A stretch of 64,000 nt of DNA from Spirulina major PCC 6313. Its GTDB lineage: Bacteria; Cyanobacteriota; Cyanobacteriia; Cyanobacteriales; Spirulinaceae. Of the stretch, positions 18,687-26,652 are shown piece after piece. The first letter of the stretch is position 1, and each line of letters begins with the position of its first letter. The translations under genes and the position numbers were made by a program. The DNA lies in contig NZ_KV878783.1 of assembly GCF_001890765.1 (NCBI RefSeq), forward strand, positions 4,864,771 to 4,928,770. Reading direction: 5' to 3'. The notes beneath the pieces were generated by a model. The model did not search any database, had not been told where the DNA came from, and was given only the letters and a program-made list of their open reading frames with translations.

Positions 18687-21600
18687 TTACTCTGATTGAG
18701 GCTTAATCCATTCGTAGCAGATGAGTTGGATATCTTGACGCTGAATTGATTTCAACATGGCCTCTTTTGTGTCTTCTTCCGGCTCTAGGTGACTGTAATA
18801 GTCATTTTCGATAAATAATTCATCAATCATTTGCATGAATTCATCAATCTTTTGATCCTGGGTGTATTGGTTCCAGATGTCTTTCAGTTCGCGATCGTAG
18901 CTGCGGAGGTTGGTTTCTTTAATCACCTTGAGAATGCGATCGCGCACTTCTTTCTCCACCGTGGATTCCTCGAATAGACTGGGTTGAGTGAGAGCTTGAT
19001 AAATGTGTTGCGGGTATTTTGTCAGCTTGCTGGCGATCTTTGCGGTTGATTTACTCTTTTGTAGAGAGTCTAGAATATTACGGATTGCGCCTTCAAAACT
19101 CATGAAAACAGACGCATCGAACTGAGCGGGGGGCAGATCATCCGGTGCGGGGAAGTCTAATTCTTCACACTGAATCCAGCTATAGATTTTACGGATACTG
19201 TGGACTAGGCTATCGGGTGCGGTGGTGATTGCACCATTGAGTTTGGGGTAGCAGTGCCAGAAGTGGCGATCGCCCGCCCGAAATGCAAAGAAGATGCCAC
19301 CCGCTTTAAAATTAGGGTCGGGAATATTAAAGTTATAGTTGCTGTGGATACCGAGGGGGATTTCTTCAAGTTGGTCTTGGGCAAACTTTTGAAGATACTG
19401 GAGCAGCGGAAAACGCATTTCATCTAAAGAAATCAATTCAGAAGCCTGTTCTAGTTCTTCCAAAATAGCCTGTTTTTCGGCTTCAGTATCGGCGCGTTTG
19501 AGGCGGTAGAGTTCTTCTAGGGAACGTTCGGAGATCGTCTCACCCAAAACTGAGGCATCTAACCCCACTTCCCGATCAATCGTGGCGATTCGTTCCTGTA
19601 AGCGTTGGACTAATCCCAGCAGTTTATCAAGCCCTTCCTCTGGAAAGCAGTTATAGATATAGAGCAAGTCAAAATCAGTACCCAGTCGGTCAATCCGTCC
19701 TGCCCGTTGGATCATCCGCACGGGGTTCCAGTGTAGGTCATAGTTCACTAAAACCCCTGCATCTTGGAGGTTTTGCCCCTCGCTCAATACGTCAGTTGAG
19801 ATCAAGATATCAATGGGATTTTCAAGGCAGTAGTCTAGTTCTTCTGGGTCTTGGGTGTTGGATTTTGGAGAAAAGTGCCTCACTTTTGCTTCGCGCTGTT
19901 TGCCGGATGAATCCCCGGTGAGGATGTCAATGTTGGGAGTTTTGTCCTCGTGGGTCATTTGAGTAAGCCATTCGTGATCATCTAGGAGTGAGCGATAGAT
20001 ATATTTTGCGGTGTCTTTGAAGTAGCTAAAAACGAGGACTTTTTGACCTTTGAAGTTGAGGAGTAATTGTTTGAAGGCGGCAAGTTTACGATCGCTCTCT
20101 CGATCGGCATCTACAGCAGCCTGAATTGCGTCAAGTCTCTCTAGAACGCTATTGAGGGCGGTTAGATCTGCTTCGATTTGGGATTGGAGTTGTTTAATAT
20201 CGTAGTCTTTGGGGTTAATCGCCTCTAGATTTTCGATAATGTCGATTTCGGCCATCTGATCATCATCGTTATCAAGGGCCATGATCAGCTTGCGAAAATT
20301 CTTGCTATCGAGGAGTTTTTTCTCTTGGGTTAGGACTTCATAAAATTTAGTTTGAAAGTTGCATTGATTGCGGAGGGTTTTGGTAAATGCGATGAGGGAG
20401 CTTTCAAAGCGTTTGAAATACAATGCTTTTTGCAGGCATACCAAGGCTTTATTGCGTTTAACTTCACTGGTATCGTCGTTATTTTTCTTTTTTTTGAAGG
20501 CTTTGATGTTATAGGGGGCGAGGTTTAGGGTATCGACTTGATCGGCGATCGCCTCATACAAGCCTGCATAGGTTGCTTCAAAGTTATAGGTGAAGTTTTC
20601 AAGCTGACGTTTTGGGAATTGGATCAGTTGTCCGGCAATGGAGATTTCTTCCCCTGCTGCTTGACGTTTGATCACATCTTGGCGGCTGCGACGTACCACG
20701 GTTTCCATGAGTAGATCGGTGATTTCGGCTTTGCCCTCTTTGAGGGCTTTGAAGTAGCTGTTAAGGTTGCCCACCCCCCAATTGCGATAGGTGATTTCAT
20801 TACCTTTGGTGAGTAGCAGAATTTGGTGATACAGGTCAAAGATGGTGTTATTGATGGGGGTGGCGGTAAGTAGTAATACTTTGGTGTCTTGTCGTCCTGT
20901 TCCGAGAAGTTTTTGGAGATTGCGGTAGCGATTGGTTGCGCTGTTGCGAAAGTTATGGGATTCATCAATCACGATCAGGTCATGATTGCGAAAACGGCGA
21001 ATATCGGCATTTTGGCGGCTGACTTCTTCGTGGGATAAAATATCGGCTTTGATGCCGAATTCATCGAGTTTTTTACGCCAAACTAAATCGCGCAGTTGGG
21101 CGGGGCAAAGCACGAGAACTTTGGGAATATGGCCGGGTTGTCGCAGTTTGATTAAGTAATGTTCAATGACGCGCAAACCGATGAAGGTTTTGCCTAAACC
21201 CACGGCATCGGCGACCATACACCCGTTATGACGTTCGAGGAGTCTGACGGCGCGTTCAAAGCCTTCTTGTTGGAAGCTGGCGAGGGTTAATCCGGTTTGA
21301 AGTTCGCCGTCGAGGAGGGTGTCGTCTTTGAAGCGTTCGTAGAGGGCTTTGATGAAGATTTGGTAGGGGGTGTAGGCTTTGCTGCCAAATTTTGAGGCGT
21401 TGAGGGCGGCGATCAGTTTGGCTTTGTAGTCGGTGTCAACGCTGGGATGATTCCAGAATCGTTCAAACCAGTGGTCTCGCAAATCGCGGGCGATCGCGCC
21501 GATTTTATTGATGATGTTGAGTTCGGAGTTACCGACCAGGCCGGAGGGGGTGAAGTTGCTGGAACCAACGATGCTGAAATCGTCAAAGATGTAGGCTTTG

Positions 21601-21989
21601 GCGTGGAGAAATTGGTTTTTATCGCCTAATGCGCCAAAGAGTCGCACTTGGATTTCTGGTTTTTCGAGGTATTGAATGAGGCGGGTGATTTGGTTTTTGT
21701 AGTCAATGTTGAAGTTTTGCTGTTCAACTTGTCCCTGAATTTCTCGTCTCAGGTGGCGAACGAGGTCGATGCGATCGCTTTCGGCGGGTCGGATGCTGGG
21801 GTCACGGCCAATGAGCAGCCGGAGGGATTTGAGTTGCTGCATGGAGTCTTCGAGGCGTACCCAGGCTTCAATTCTAAAAAATCCGGTGGCTATATCTAAA
21901 ACCTTTTGGTTTTCCTGTTCAATGATTTTGATCAGGATTTCTTGGAGGGTTCTATTTTGGGTGTTGTCGATATAGTCTGGAATTGCCAT
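18687..21989 (-). CDS. PLD-domain SNF2/DEAD-like helicase of a putative restriction or defence module
   Basis: This 1100-residue protein has an N-terminal phospholipase-D-like nuclease domain (about 1-200) with one HKD-type motif, LHAKAYIF, followed by GSSNFTPSGL. A superfamily 2 helicase core follows: DAVGLGKTFIGL (Walker A), LIVIDESHNF (Walker B), LLTATPINN, and in the second RecA-like lobe ISTDVLSEGQNLQDA and MIQRAGRIDRLG. The C-terminal 350 residues are unassigned. PLD-helicase proteins with this order are often encoded beside large adenine methylases in bacterial defence loci. Here the order of transcription is methylase, DUF559 nuclease, this gene, all on the minus strand. ATG 21989 starts the gene. 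Confidence 0.88.
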   Translation of the reverse strand: MAIPDYIDNTQNRTLQEILIKIIEQENQKVLDIATGFFRIEAWVRLEDSMQQLKSLRLLIGRDPSIRPAESDRIDLVRHLRREIQGQVEQQNFNIDYKNQITRLIQYLEKPEIQVRLFGALGDKNQFLHAKAYIFDDFSIVGSSNFTPSGLVGNSELNIINKIGAIARDLRDHWFERFWNHPSVDTDYKAKLIAALNASKFGSKAYTPYQIFIKALYERFKDDTLLDGELQTGLTLASFQQEGFERAVRLLERHNGCMVADAVGLGKTFIGLRVIEHYLIKLRQPGHIPKVLVLCPAQLRDLVWRKKLDEFGIKADILSHEEVSRQNADIRRFRNHDLIVIDESHNFRNSATNRYRNLQKLLGTGRQDTKVLLLTATPINNTIFDLYHQILLLTKGNEITYRNWGVGNLNSYFKALKEGKAEITDLLMETVVRRSRQDVIKRQAAGEEISIAGQLIQFPKRQLENFTYNFEATYAGLYEAIADQVDTLNLAPYNIKAFKKKKNNDDTSEVKRNKALVCLQKALYFKRFESSLIAFTKTLRNQCNFQTKFYEVLTQEKKLLDSKNFRKLIMALDNDDDQMAEIDIIENLEAINPKDYDIKQLQSQIEADLTALNSVLERLDAIQAAVDADRESDRKLAAFKQLLLNFKGQKVLVFSYFKDTAKYIYRSLLDDHEWLTQMTHEDKTPNIDILTGDSSGKQREAKVRHFSPKSNTQDPEELDYCLENPIDILISTDVLSEGQNLQDAGVLVNYDLHWNPVRMIQRAGRIDRLGTDFDLLYIYNCFPEEGLDKLLGLVQRLQERIATIDREVGLDASVLGETISERSLEELYRLKRADTEAEKQAILEELEQASELISLDEMRFPLLQYLQKFAQDQLEEIPLGIHSNYNFNIPDPNFKAGGIFFAFRAGDRHFWHCYPKLNGAITTAPDSLVHSIRKIYSWIQCEELDFPAPDDLPPAQFDASVFMSFEGAIRNILDSLQKSKSTAKIASKLTKYPQHIYQALTQPSLFEESTVEKEVRDRILKVIKETNLRSYDRELKDIWNQYTQDQKIDEFMQMIDELFIENDYYSHLEPEEDTKEAMLKSIQRQDIQLICYEWIKPQSE

Positions 21990-22042
21990 ATTTACTGATG
22001 CTTACTGGATTGATTCAGAAATTAAAATTTGCATGGCAATAA

Positions 22043-22480
22043 TTAATTAGGATTTTGGTTAATGAAGTTCTGGAATTCTTCGAGGGTGGGATTTGGGAAT
22101 TGATGGCGTTCTTTGGTGTAGTTACTATATTTTGGGATTAAGGCTTCTATTTTTTCGCATACGCCTTCAAGATTTTGTAGAATTTCTTGGTTGGTAAAGC
22201 GAATCACTTTTAGTCCATAACCGTTAAGGATTTGTGTCCTAATTTTATCGTATTCAATGGCTTCTTTGGTGTAGTGGCTTTCTCCATCAATTTCGATTAC
22301 GAGTTTTAGGTGAGGGCAATAAAAGTCTACGATATAGTTATCGATTGGGCGTTGACGATGGACGCGATGTTGAAAGGTTCTAAGGTATTCATACCAGAGT
22401 TTTTTCTCGGCGGGGGTCATGTTTTTGCGGAGTTCTTTGGCTCTGGATACTAGGTCTTTGTTGTAAGGTAGGTGGTTCAT
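22043..22480 (-). CDS. DUF559 domain endonuclease-like protein
   Basis: The 145-residue protein carries DUF559, a Vsr/PD-(D/E)XK-like fold: KNMTPAEKKLWYEYLR, then FQHRVHRQRPIDNYIVDFYCP, LVIEIDGESH, and GYGLKVIRFTNQEIL. The Asp of VDFYCP and the Glu/Asp of EIDGESH are the expected metal-binding residues. Such genes are common in cyanobacteria, often beside mobile elements, and their role is not established. Here it lies between the methylase and the helicase, so it may be the cutting subunit of the module or simply a passenger. Start ATG 22480; 53 bp separate its stop from the helicase start. Confidence 0.85.
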   Translation of the reverse strand: MNHLPYNKDLVSRAKELRKNMTPAEKKLWYEYLRTFQHRVHRQRPIDNYIVDFYCPHLKLVIEIDGESHYTKEAIEYDKIRTQILNGYGLKVIRFTNQEILQNLEGVCEKIEALIPKYSNYTKERHQFPNPTLEEFQNFINQNPN

Positions 22481-22519
22481 AGATTGGTTGATAGGGTGTC
22501 TTCTAGTCTATCTTAATCT

Positions 22520-22765
22520 GATCCCCCCAACCCCCCTTGGGAAGGGGGGCTATTTTGGGGAGTTGAAAGTCCCCCTTTTTAAGGGGGATTTAGGGGGATC
22601 TCTTTGGGTTCTCGGTGGGATTGATCCCCCCAACCCCCCTTGGGAAGGGGGGCTATTTTGGGGAATTGAAAGTCCCCCTTTTTAAGGGAGATTTAGGGGG
22701 ATCTCTTTGGGTTCTCTGTGGGATTGATCCCCCCAACCCCCCTTGGGAAGGGGGGCTATTTTTGG
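22520..22765. repeat. Two and a half intergenic copies of the GATCCCCC palindromic repeat
   Basis: Copies lie at 22520-22600 and 22623-22703, with a half copy at 22726-22765. Each full copy (81 bp) begins GATCCCCCC, holds a hairpin with arms CCCCCCTT and AAGGGGGG, then a second hairpin (AGTCCCCCTT/AAGGGGGATTTA) and ends GGGGGATC. A near-constant 22-bp spacer (TCTTTGGGTTCTC-GTGGGATT) separates copies. The half copy contains the stop codon of the methylase gene. Confidence 0.92.
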
Positions 22766-25700
22766 GATTGGATGATTTTGAGGTCGGCGGGGGTGAGGCC
22801 GTAGAGGTGGGCGACTCGTTCATCGATTTCGGCTTCCCATTGTTGGACTCCGATGCCTTTGGCGGTTAGGCATTTTTCGACTAATTTTTCTATCGCCTGC
22901 TTCTCTTCTTCACTGGCTTTAGGGATTGGAATTTGAAAAAGATTTTCTCGATATGCTTGAATGTAGCCATTTTGTAAATCTGTACAAATAAATTTCAGAA
23001 AATACCATCCAATGAGACTATTAAGAATAGATGCAATAAAGCTGTCAACTTGAGAGATCATGTACAAAGCATCATTATGCAAGTAGTGTTCTTGATCGAA
23101 TGCAAAAACAGCACTATTCATAAAGCGACCTAAAATTATTTTATTAGTTTCAAACTCTTCCCAGTACGCACAAGATCGCAATTCCCAAAAATATTTTCCT
23201 TGGTCTGCACGCTTGATAAGCTTATCTTTGTAAATATTAAATCGTTGATAAATCGCAGGATAAGTTTTAGAGAAAATCTTTTCAGCTTCTACTTTCTTCT
23301 TGCCGCTCCAAGGGTGTTCTTTATTTTCTGATGATTCAATTTTGATTAGGTACTGTTCAGCAAAATCTACAGACCATCTTTTGACATCTCGACCCCGAAG
23401 AAAGGGTTTAAGGACTTCAGCGGATGAGGGGTGTTCAGCGATGAGCCGATCGCGCGTTTCTCGATCCACAACAAACGCTTCATTAAAACCCGTCTTAATT
23501 CCATAATAAAAACGACCATTGACATATTCTCCTAAAGGCGTTCCCGCCTTGCGTAGCTTATCCAAAAGTCGCAACACTTCAGGAGACTCTAACCGCCAGC
23601 CGTCCGGCTTCAAATCACTTTGCTTTAACAGAAATTTCTTCTGCTGATAAACCGGAACAAAATCATCAAGCCCATCATTTTCATCCCATGTGAGGACAGA
23701 AGCTTGATGAGATCCCCCCCTGCCCCCCTTGGAAAGGGGGGAGTTTGAAGAGGTTGAAGTCTCCCTTTCCAAGGGGGATTTAGGGAGATCAGATCCCCCC
23801 CTGCCCCCCTTGCTAAGGGGGGAGTTTGAAGAGGTTGAAGTCTCCCTTTCCAAGGGGGATTTAGGGAGATCAGATCCCCCCCTGCCCCCCTTGCTAAGGG
23901 GGGAGTTTGAAGTCCCCCTTTTTAAGGGGGATTTAGGGGGATCTGCCTTTTTGAGCGCAATAATACTCGGATAAGCGATCGCCTCAAATACATTTGCATC
24001 CCCAAAATCAATCACCACCTCAATCGTAGACTTTTCGCCTAGATATTTGCGTAACTTTTCCCCATAACCCGCCCGAAAATATTTGTTAGATGTGATGTAA
24101 GTTAGATAACCTTGGGGCTTTAATAACCGAAAGCCCTGCTCATAAAAATAGACAAATAGATCCGCAACCCCCGTATAACAGTCATATTCAGCCTTTAACG
24201 CGGGCTTGATTTCCTTGAGTTGCTCCTGTCGCACATAGGGCGGATTGCCAACCACAAGATCAAACCCTCCCTTTTCCTCGAACACATCCCGAAAATGGAG
24301 ATAATACTGAAAGAAATTCAAGGAGCGATCGCCCCGCTGCACCGCCGCCTCAAACTCATCCAACCCCGCCAACAGCGCCGCCAAAACCTCCCGCTCCTGT
24401 AACTGCTTCTTCTGAGGCTTTTTAAGCTGCTTCAGTTCCCGCTCCAACTCCTGCTGCTGCTGAATTACCACCCGCCGCTGATCCGCGATCGCCCCCGCAA
24501 AAACCCGCTTTTCCGCCGCCAAAATCTCCAACCGTAACCCCTGCCGCTCCTCCGAACTCACATCAAAATATCGCTTCTCCAACCCCACCAAAACCGCGAT
24601 CGCCCGATCCAGTTCCGTCGTCTGGAACCCAAGACTTAACTGCTCCGCTTGACCCGGCACAGGAATAATCGTTTGACCATTAATCTTCGAGATTAACGAA
24701 TCCCCACACATCAACTTATAATCCAGATTCGGCAACGGCTCCACATCCGCGATCGTCGGAATATCCACCACCAACGACAACCACATCCGCAACTTCGCAA
24801 TCTCGATCGCCTCCGGCTTGATATCCACCCCATAGAGATTGTTCGCGATGATCTCCCGCTTCCACTCCGAAATCGCCAAACTCCCCCGCTGCACCGTCAT
24901 CCCCTCCCGACGCGCGATCGCCTGCCGCACATTTAGGATTAACTGCATCATCCCCAACGGAAACGCCCCCGAACCCACGGCAGGGTCAAGCACCTTGAGC
25001 GAGGCGATCGCCTGCTTTAAACCCCGCGCCTGCTGTGGCGAAATCAACTCATGCAAATCCCGATCCGAAATATCCGGGTCATAATTCACCAACAGTTGCG
25101 CCGTTGCCAACGAGACCCCCGCCTCATCCACCAAATACCGCGCCAACACCTCAGCACACATAAACTGCACAATGCCACGGGGCGTGTAGAACGTCCCCGA
25201 CTTGCCCCGCTCCTCCGCCACCAACATATTCTCAAACACCTTCCCCAACATCTCCGGATCAACCGCCACATCCTCATCCCCCGCCACATTTTCCGCGATC
25301 GTGAAGTTGTAACCATTGAAGAAACCGAGGATGCTCTCCGAATCCCCAGGGTCAAAAATGTGATTGGGCAGAGTGATCAATTCCGGTGTAGCTTTCCCCG
25401 CCCCATCCCGAACACCCACGCCATAATCGCGATCGAATAGACCGCCATTTAGATAGGGAATGCGATCCCCCCCGGCCCCCCTTACTAAGGGGGGAGTTTG
25501 AAGTCCCCCTTTCCAAGGGGGATTTAGGGGAATCTGATCCCCACCGGCCCCCCTTGGGAAGGGGGGAGTATCGGAAAGTCCCCCTTTCCAAGGGGGATTT
25601 AGGGGGATCTCTCTCTGATCCATTGGCGTATTCAAGACATTGAAAAACAGCGGCTCTAAAATTTCGGCGTAGTAGTCCGTCCCGTCCGCCTGGTACTTGT

Positions 25701-26436
25701 TCACCCGGTACTGGGTTTTCAGGAATTGGCGATCGCCCGCCAAAAACTCCTTTTTCTGGAGAAAATATAAAAACATGATTCGCCCCAAAAGCCGCTGGGC
25801 AAACTGGTGGAGGCGATCCATATCCTCAAAATAAGGGTCTGGGTTATGGTCTTGGATGACCTGCAAAACCCGCTCAAACAACCGCTTATATTGCTCATAA
25901 AACCGCTTGGTGAGCTTCTCCACATCAAAAGCGTCACAGTGGGCTTTGTAAAGTTCCAGAGCCGATTTACCTCGGACGGCGATCGCCTCCAAGCGGTCTA
26001 AATCGTAGGCCGTGGGGTTTTGGCGATCGATCAATAACTTGCGGATACTCGCCCGCAACGCCATCTTGTCATCAAAGGATTTGCGAGGATTCACCAGCAT
26101 CAACTGGTTGTAGTCCTTCGTCGCTAAGAGCAAAAATTCTGAGGGACGTTTGCCAAGCTGAGAGGCGATCGCCTTCATCCGCGTGCTGGCCATCGATGCC
26201 GATTCCCAAGCACTCGGCTCCAGCTCAAACAACACAACCTGCAACCCGCCCCGGTCTTGGTCGGCAATCAGAAAAGCTTTCGCGATCGCCTCCTGACTGC
26301 GAGCCGATAGCTCCAACGTCTCGATCTCGATGGGTTCCGCCGTCGCGTTGTAGCCCAACTGCCTAAAGATTTTGGCAATCTTTTCCGGGCTGGTTAAATC
26401 GCGGAGGTCATCAACCTTGAGGATTCTGGGTGACAT
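22756..26436 (-). CDS. Eco57I/PglX-like adenine-specific DNA methylase (restriction-modification type)
   Basis: From ATG 26436 (MSPRILKVDDLRD) the protein has 1226 residues. The N-terminal part (RGGLQVVLFELE...FLLLATKDYNQLMLVNPR) resembles that of type IIG/BREX-like enzymes. The methylase core shows the AdoMet motif LKVLDPAVGSGAFPLGM and the catalytic VVGNPPYVRQ. The C-terminal third resembles a TaqI-type target recognition domain (LKPFLRGRDVKRW). It should methylate adenine in a specific site, as modification or as part of a fused restriction enzyme; no nuclease motif is obvious in it. Repeat-derived peptides interrupt it at two places (25464-25609 and 23711-23943). A TTG at 26448 is an alternative start. 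The stop codon lies within another repeat copy. Confidence 0.88.
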   Translation of the reverse strand: MSPRILKVDDLRDLTSPEKIAKIFRQLGYNATAEPIEIETLELSARSQEAIAKAFLIADQDRGGLQVVLFELEPSAWESASMASTRMKAIASQLGKRPSEFLLLATKDYNQLMLVNPRKSFDDKMALRASIRKLLIDRQNPTAYDLDRLEAIAVRGKSALELYKAHCDAFDVEKLTKRFYEQYKRLFERVLQVIQDHNPDPYFEDMDRLHQFAQRLLGRIMFLYFLQKKEFLAGDRQFLKTQYRVNKYQADGTDYYAEILEPLFFNVLNTPMDQREIPLNPPWKGGLSDTPPFPRGAGGDQIPLNPPWKGGLQTPPLVRGAGGDRIPYLNGGLFDRDYGVGVRDGAGKATPELITLPNHIFDPGDSESILGFFNGYNFTIAENVAGDEDVAVDPEMLGKVFENMLVAEERGKSGTFYTPRGIVQFMCAEVLARYLVDEAGVSLATAQLLVNYDPDISDRDLHELISPQQARGLKQAIASLKVLDPAVGSGAFPLGMMQLILNVRQAIARREGMTVQRGSLAISEWKREIIANNLYGVDIKPEAIEIAKLRMWLSLVVDIPTIADVEPLPNLDYKLMCGDSLISKINGQTIIPVPGQAEQLSLGFQTTELDRAIAVLVGLEKRYFDVSSEERQGLRLEILAAEKRVFAGAIADQRRVVIQQQQELERELKQLKKPQKKQLQEREVLAALLAGLDEFEAAVQRGDRSLNFFQYYLHFRDVFEEKGGFDLVVGNPPYVRQEQLKEIKPALKAEYDCYTGVADLFVYFYEQGFRLLKPQGYLTYITSNKYFRAGYGEKLRKYLGEKSTIEVVIDFGDANVFEAIAYPSIIALKKADPPKSPLKRGTSNSPLSKGGRGGSDLPKSPLERETSTSSNSPLSKGGRGGSDLPKSPLERETSTSSNSPLSKGGRGGSHQASVLTWDENDGLDDFVPVYQQKKFLLKQSDLKPDGWRLESPEVLRLLDKLRKAGTPLGEYVNGRFYYGIKTGFNEAFVVDRETRDRLIAEHPSSAEVLKPFLRGRDVKRWSVDFAEQYLIKIESSENKEHPWSGKKKVEAEKIFSKTYPAIYQRFNIYKDKLIKRADQGKYFWELRSCAYWEEFETNKIILGRFMNSAVFAFDQEHYLHNDALYMISQVDSFIASILNSLIGWYFLKFICTDLQNGYIQAYRENLFQIPIPKASEEEKQAIEKLVEKCLTAKGIGVQQWEAEIDERVAHLYGLTPADLKIIQSQK
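23711..23943. repeat. Three in-frame repeat copies inside the methylase gene
   Basis: Copies at 23711-23790, 23792-23871 and 23873-23943 start GATCCCCCCCTGCCCCCCTT and end in a GATC. The first two have an 81-bp period, i.e. 27 codons, so the reading frame stays open and yields a repeated 27-residue peptide containing SDLPKSPLERETS and NSPLSKGGRGG. The third copy is 71 bp and lacks the GAGGTTGAA section. Confidence 0.95.
25464..25609. repeat. Two in-frame repeat copies inside the methylase gene
   Basis: Copies at 25464-25534 and 25536-25609 encode IPLNPPWKGGL... units just ahead of the conserved IPYLNGGLFD block of the methylase. They belong to the same family as the copies at 23.7 kb and 22.5 kb. 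Confidence 0.93.
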
Positions 26437-26652
26437 GACATTTCCCAAAGACGATAGGAGAAGGGCGCGATCGATATCTAATCGCGAGGCAGAGCGGCCT
26501 GAATCGTGACGCTCAATCTGAATGATTCAGTATATGTGATATATATTAATTTTTTATCTAAATTTAAATTAACTTTAGATAACATGAATTTAGACAACTG
26601 TTGATCCAGTGCGGCCTAAATAACGGCTTCGCTGAATACGATACGCGATCGC

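Follow-up and report, generated by a model that had tools for sequence, protein, structure and literature searches.

In-frame copies of a dispersed hairpin repeat in a type IIG restriction-modification gene of the cyanobacterium Spirulina major

A type IIG restriction-modification gene of Spirulina major PCC 6313 holds two blocks of a double-hairpin repeat, GATCCCCC...GGGGGATC, with five units in total. With a probability of roughly 0.85, these blocks represent a non-coding, dispersed hairpin repeat that is located mainly between genes and occasionally lands in-frame in the linkers of proteins. The gene is found in the window, i.e., the complete stretch of 64,000 nucleotides that was analyzed, to which the coordinates refer unless indicated otherwise. 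The source genome comprises 5.05 Mb in two contigs, HIP1 octamers (GCGATCGC) are present in the window, and the nearest named hosts of homologues are cyanobacteria.

The host gene (22756-26448, reverse strand) consists of 1230 codons and encodes an Eco57I methylase and a TaqI_C specificity domain. Its reading frame is open over the whole length, also through both insert blocks, and the DPAVGSGAF and NPPY motifs are intact. Insert A (25464-25609, reverse strand) consists of two tandem palindromic units (25536-25609 and 25464-25537), which start 75 bp apart on the coding strand, and encodes IPLNPPWKGGLSDTPPFPRGAGGDQIPLNPPWKGGLQTPPLVRGAGGD; its peptide IPLNPPWKGGL..GAGGD directly precedes the conserved block IPYLNGGLF. 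Insert B (23711-23945, reverse strand) contains three tandem palindromic units (23873-23945, 23792-23874, and 23711-23793), which start 81 bp, i.e., 27 codons, apart and encode DPPKSPLKRGTSNSPLSKGGRGGS and two variants thereof. These coordinates agree with an earlier note, which had reported five repeat units at two places in an open methylase gene, repeated peptides beside conserved blocks, and an 81-bp period, the latter applying to insert B. The frame in which the element is read differs between the sites, with GATC at codon phase 2 in site A and at phase 0 in site B. The single-stranded DNA of site A folded with a z-score of -3.8 as compared with dinucleotide shuffles. An AlphaFold model of the protein had a mean pLDDT of 44 (9 sequences), which is too low to locate the inserts in the structure.

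The repeat also forms a third array (22519-22772) with a period of 103 bp, which is not divisible by 3. This array extends to the 3' end of the gene, which is overlapped by the final copy (from 22725); the TAG stop codon (22756-22758) is located in the edge of this copy. The protein ends with KIIQSQK, where homologues have KIIRG or KIIKG instead. Directly downstream on the same strand, a PLD/SNF2 helicase and a DUF559 endonuclease-like ORF are encoded (18687-22480), an arrangement that suggests that they form one defence cluster together with the type IIG gene.

Homologues with ~53-82% identity are found in Planktothricoides, Arthrospira, Aphanothece, Nostoc, Calothrix, and others. The peptides are missing from all readable ones, i.e., from 13 of 13 at site A and from 11 of 11 at site B, where one fragment stops short and one homologue diverges. 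Because the readable homologues lack the peptides at either site, both blocks are to be considered insertions, and the alignment confirmed the expectation that these are clean and in-frame. In most homologues, the empty site A is composed of codons for Ser-Pro-Trp-Gly (SPWG), which form a mini-palindrome, TCCCC(C/T)TGGGG or similar. This mini-palindrome resembles the ends of the element, and its two halves correspond to the junctions of the insert. The insert replaces a few native codons at either site (at site B, about GAAAAACCCAAAGAA in the homologue of genome G048). A target-site duplication was not seen at site A or B, with homologues too distant to define one exactly. The homologues of G048 and of Planktothricoides SR001 look like one and the same gene.

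These alignments bear on the possibility that this enzyme subfamily has long had the peptides as functional domain parts, e.g., DNA-binding or spacer loops, and that their likeness to the repeat was acquired later. Their position between conserved blocks and the frame-keeping periods of the arrays would fit such an origin. However, the idea that all homologues carry the same peptides is contradicted, since none of the readable ones does. Furthermore, the DNA matches a repeat of dozens of genomes that is mostly located outside genes, and sites A and B read the same DNA in different frames. We regard an origin as old domain parts as highly improbable.

Alternatively, the type IIG gene could be a decaying pseudogene, the frame of which was kept by chance. 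The gene is accessory and of a defence type, and insertions are found in three places; the chance that a single insert is in-frame is about one in three, multiplied by the probability that the frame is open. Against decay, however, speak the length of the open frame, the intact motifs, and the observation that all units of both blocks keep the frame. Also, when the inserts were excluded, comparison with the G048 homologue gave a dN of 0.18 and a dS of 2.07, thus a dN/dS of ~0.09, a rough ratio as dS is near saturation but consistent with long-term selection for function. Finally, widely conserved genes in other genomes, i.e., those for CobN, CobB, and an RsmB-type methylase, show the same pattern. 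Decay of the gene is therefore an unlikely explanation.

Insertion of a dispersed hairpin repeat, the reading preferred here, is consistent with the form and spread of the element. The consensus derived from aligned copies, GATCCCCCTAAATCCCCCTTnnnAAGGGGGACTT..TTCCCCCCTTnnnAAGGGGGGyTAGGGGGGATC, is about 70-85 bp long and has two stem-loops flanked by GATCCCCC inverted ends. Multiplication of the inner hairpin can give rise to arrays with a period of ~27-36 bp. That the repeat is dispersed was borne out by searches of its own genome, in which GATCCCCC gave 399 matches vs. 146 for a reversed control, the 20-base start with up to 3 mismatches 54 vs. 22, and an exact 17-mer 16 vs. 0. Exact matches to the 17-mer CCCCCTAAATCCCCCTT were found in 55 of 99 related genomes, with a maximum of 268 copies and near-zero counts for the reversed control, and 17 of the 18 matching records in a search of 72,556 plasmids were cyanobacterial. 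Only sub-threshold, chance-like matches were obtained in Rfam, and an exact-pattern search of IMG/VR gave no match. In several genomes, many copies are nested in a larger, genome-specific repeat, which in genome G059 has terminal inverted repeats, AGGACTTACGC...GCGTAAGTCCT; the copies in the type IIG gene are bare cores without the outer repeat. A separate dispersed repeat of ~75 bp, AAGATCCCCCTCAATCCCCCTTAAAAAGGGGGAAGTxGCGTTCTCAT..CGCTATA (loci L041, L042, L102, and L106), has the GATCCCCC hairpin start in common with the element. On plasmid pPg_02 of Pseudanabaena galeata (L231), a copy of the repeat provides the C terminus and the stop codon of an annotated oxidoreductase gene that extends into it.

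The repeat is chiefly intergenic. Its location was analyzed in 80 evenly spaced 20-kb stretches of its own genome and for copies from four other genomes, with gene status assigned by a crude gene caller and arrays merged; testing 150-bp flanks for coding potential was not sensitive enough, as the core is often embedded in larger repeats. In these unbiased samples, only 5 of 148 elements were located inside called genes, at a coding fraction of 0.71-0.79: all 11 copies in the own genome were intergenic, and 5 of 137 in the four other genomes were inside genes. Since most copies are intergenic, those inside genes are rare survivors. Broken genes were looked for among the 10 same-strand gene pairs that flank an element most tightly, and no split gene was found among these ten. 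Thus, of the suggestion in the earlier note that the repeats spread into genes as translated inserts, the occurrence of in-frame copies in unrelated genes stands, but entry into genes is not a general habit of the element.

In-frame copies of the same or of related repeats recur in unrelated genes and genomes, read in several frames and from either strand. CobN of genome G045 contains two in-frame inserts, a comparison that is noisy as the linkers of the homologues are variable and most of the loci compared stop before the first site. CobB has in-frame inserts in G045 and G069 at one linker, which differ between the two hosts, and an RsmB-type RNA methylase of G045 carries an in-frame array of 30-bp units. 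In the own genome, two CHAT-domain proteins and an MmeI-type enzyme contain in-frame inserts; five relatives are without the insert of the latter, and the MmeI-type enzyme of G069 has a different insert sequence at the same linker. PglX, encoded on a plasmid of Planktothrix agardhii, has an in-frame insert as well and is longer by two 30-bp units, in frame, in a second strain of this species (L408 and L409); in a PglX encoded on a plasmid of Nostoc ATCC 53789, this linker is occupied by a different palindromic repeat. In CobN of the own genome (L039; G000:C2:33094-36876), two linkers have LTQPSPTGAGLELPAPGGEGPGMRVSG and LTQLSPAGEGFRLPSPVGEGLGMRVLG, apparently translated from a second family of palindromic repeats.

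The periods of the tandem arrays inside genes, i.e., 75, 81, 36, 30, and 30 bp, are multiples of 3 in five of five cases vs. 8 of 24 arrays outside genes. Fisher's exact test gave p = 0.024 for four of four and about 0.01, calculated by hand, for five of five in this small sample, in which in-gene arrays were counted only where the gene was open, so that retention of the frame is partly built into the detection. In this count, site B was included as in-gene, the gene being cut off in that locus, PglX was added, and the true spacing of 75 bp was used for site A instead of the 72 bp given by the program.

The following scheme would explain these data. A non-coding hairpin repeat would spread, mainly between genes, and occasionally land in a flexible linker of a protein-encoding gene. 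A given copy has no stop codon in some of its reading frames, so that the gene would stay open if the length and phase of the insertion were right, and selection would retain only copies of this kind. Thereafter, units may duplicate in tandem, with only multiples of 3 persisting. The driving force of the spreading would be an outside enzyme or slippage during replication or repair at the hairpins, and the naked unit may be mobile. The insert-bearing protein is presumably made and the repeat translated, and the inserts probably function as tolerated linkers that confer no new function on the enzyme.

Perhaps, the inserts have acquired a use, either as an adjustable linker, with the number of units tuning the enzyme, or through hairpins that regulate translation of the mRNA. 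The presence of different repeats at the same linkers in different hosts, as in CobB, the MmeI-type enzymes, and PglX, and the strain-dependent number of units in PglX could be understood in this way. However, the same facts are explained if linkers repeatedly tolerate insertions, and most copies are kept out of genes, and we give little credence to such a use. A wider form of the insertion scheme, to which we would assign slightly less than an even chance, is that several families of intergenic palindromic repeats across the cyanobacteria keep landing in-frame at the same interdomain linkers of enzymes, after which in-frame changes in unit number vary linker length between strains, so that mobile DNA would constitute a continuing, phylum-wide source of new protein sequence.

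The small dispersed repeats (SDR) of Nostoc, which were reportedly described by Elhai and coworkers in 2008, are said to be very small mobile repeats of 21-27 nt with a predicted secondary structure that are nested in other repeats. The element is similar to these in structure, nesting, and cyanobacterial host, but its unit is about three times longer. Among the papers searched with DNA and peptide strings, none described the peptides or the repeat, although an earlier description is possible. A further comparison is with the Rickettsia palindromic elements (RPEs), which are dispersed palindromes located in-frame in ORFs of unrelated function (PMC10969869, PMC3733652). In R. conorii, nearly half of them are present within ORFs (PMC10969869). 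Like RPEs, the element is a dispersed, hairpin-forming palindrome that is found in-frame in unrelated ORFs, for which insert-free homologues exist. In contrast, it occurs in another phylum, its unit is about 70-85 bp vs. about 150 bp for RPEs, it is read in several frames and from either strand where RPEs encode one conserved peptide, its units expand in tandem inside genes, and the share of copies inside genes (5 of 148) is far lower than in R. conorii. The likeness to RPEs proposed in the earlier note holds for the way of acting, i.e., in-frame with insert-free homologues, but not for a large in-gene share; the repeat acts like an RPE but is not classed as one here, the likeness being one of behaviour.

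Other known elements share part of these features. Cyanobacterial MITEs, e.g., Nezha (cited in PMC3733652), are likewise small and non-coding; the element has inverted GATCCCCC ends, and copies occur inside larger repeats, at least one of which has terminal inverted repeats. However, the copies in the type IIG gene are naked cores, and no target duplication is seen at sites A and B in comparison with the distant homologues. REP/REPIN elements, with their RAYT transposases (PMC3733652, PMC3116915), resemble it in their paired hairpins, high copy number, and mostly intergenic location, but the core lacks a GTAG or CGTC tag, and its consensus begins with GATCCCCC. A RAYT/Y1 transposase was considered as the mover and rejected, as a copy of the repeat was found nearby at 1 of 30 Y1 loci, which is about chance.

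Whilst protein-coding palindromes are best known from Rickettsia, the same outcome is now found in cyanobacteria, where the inserts add new Pro/Gly-rich stretches to proteins. Given the insert-free homologues, the several types of repeats at the same linkers, and the differences in unit number between strains, the question whether such inserts are tolerated or useful is directly testable in growable organisms, with the conserved enzymes CobN and CobB as natural test cases. For annotators, it is relevant that Pro/Gly/Ser-rich stretches in cyanobacterial proteins, like NSPLSKGGRGG, can be translated repeats and not domains.
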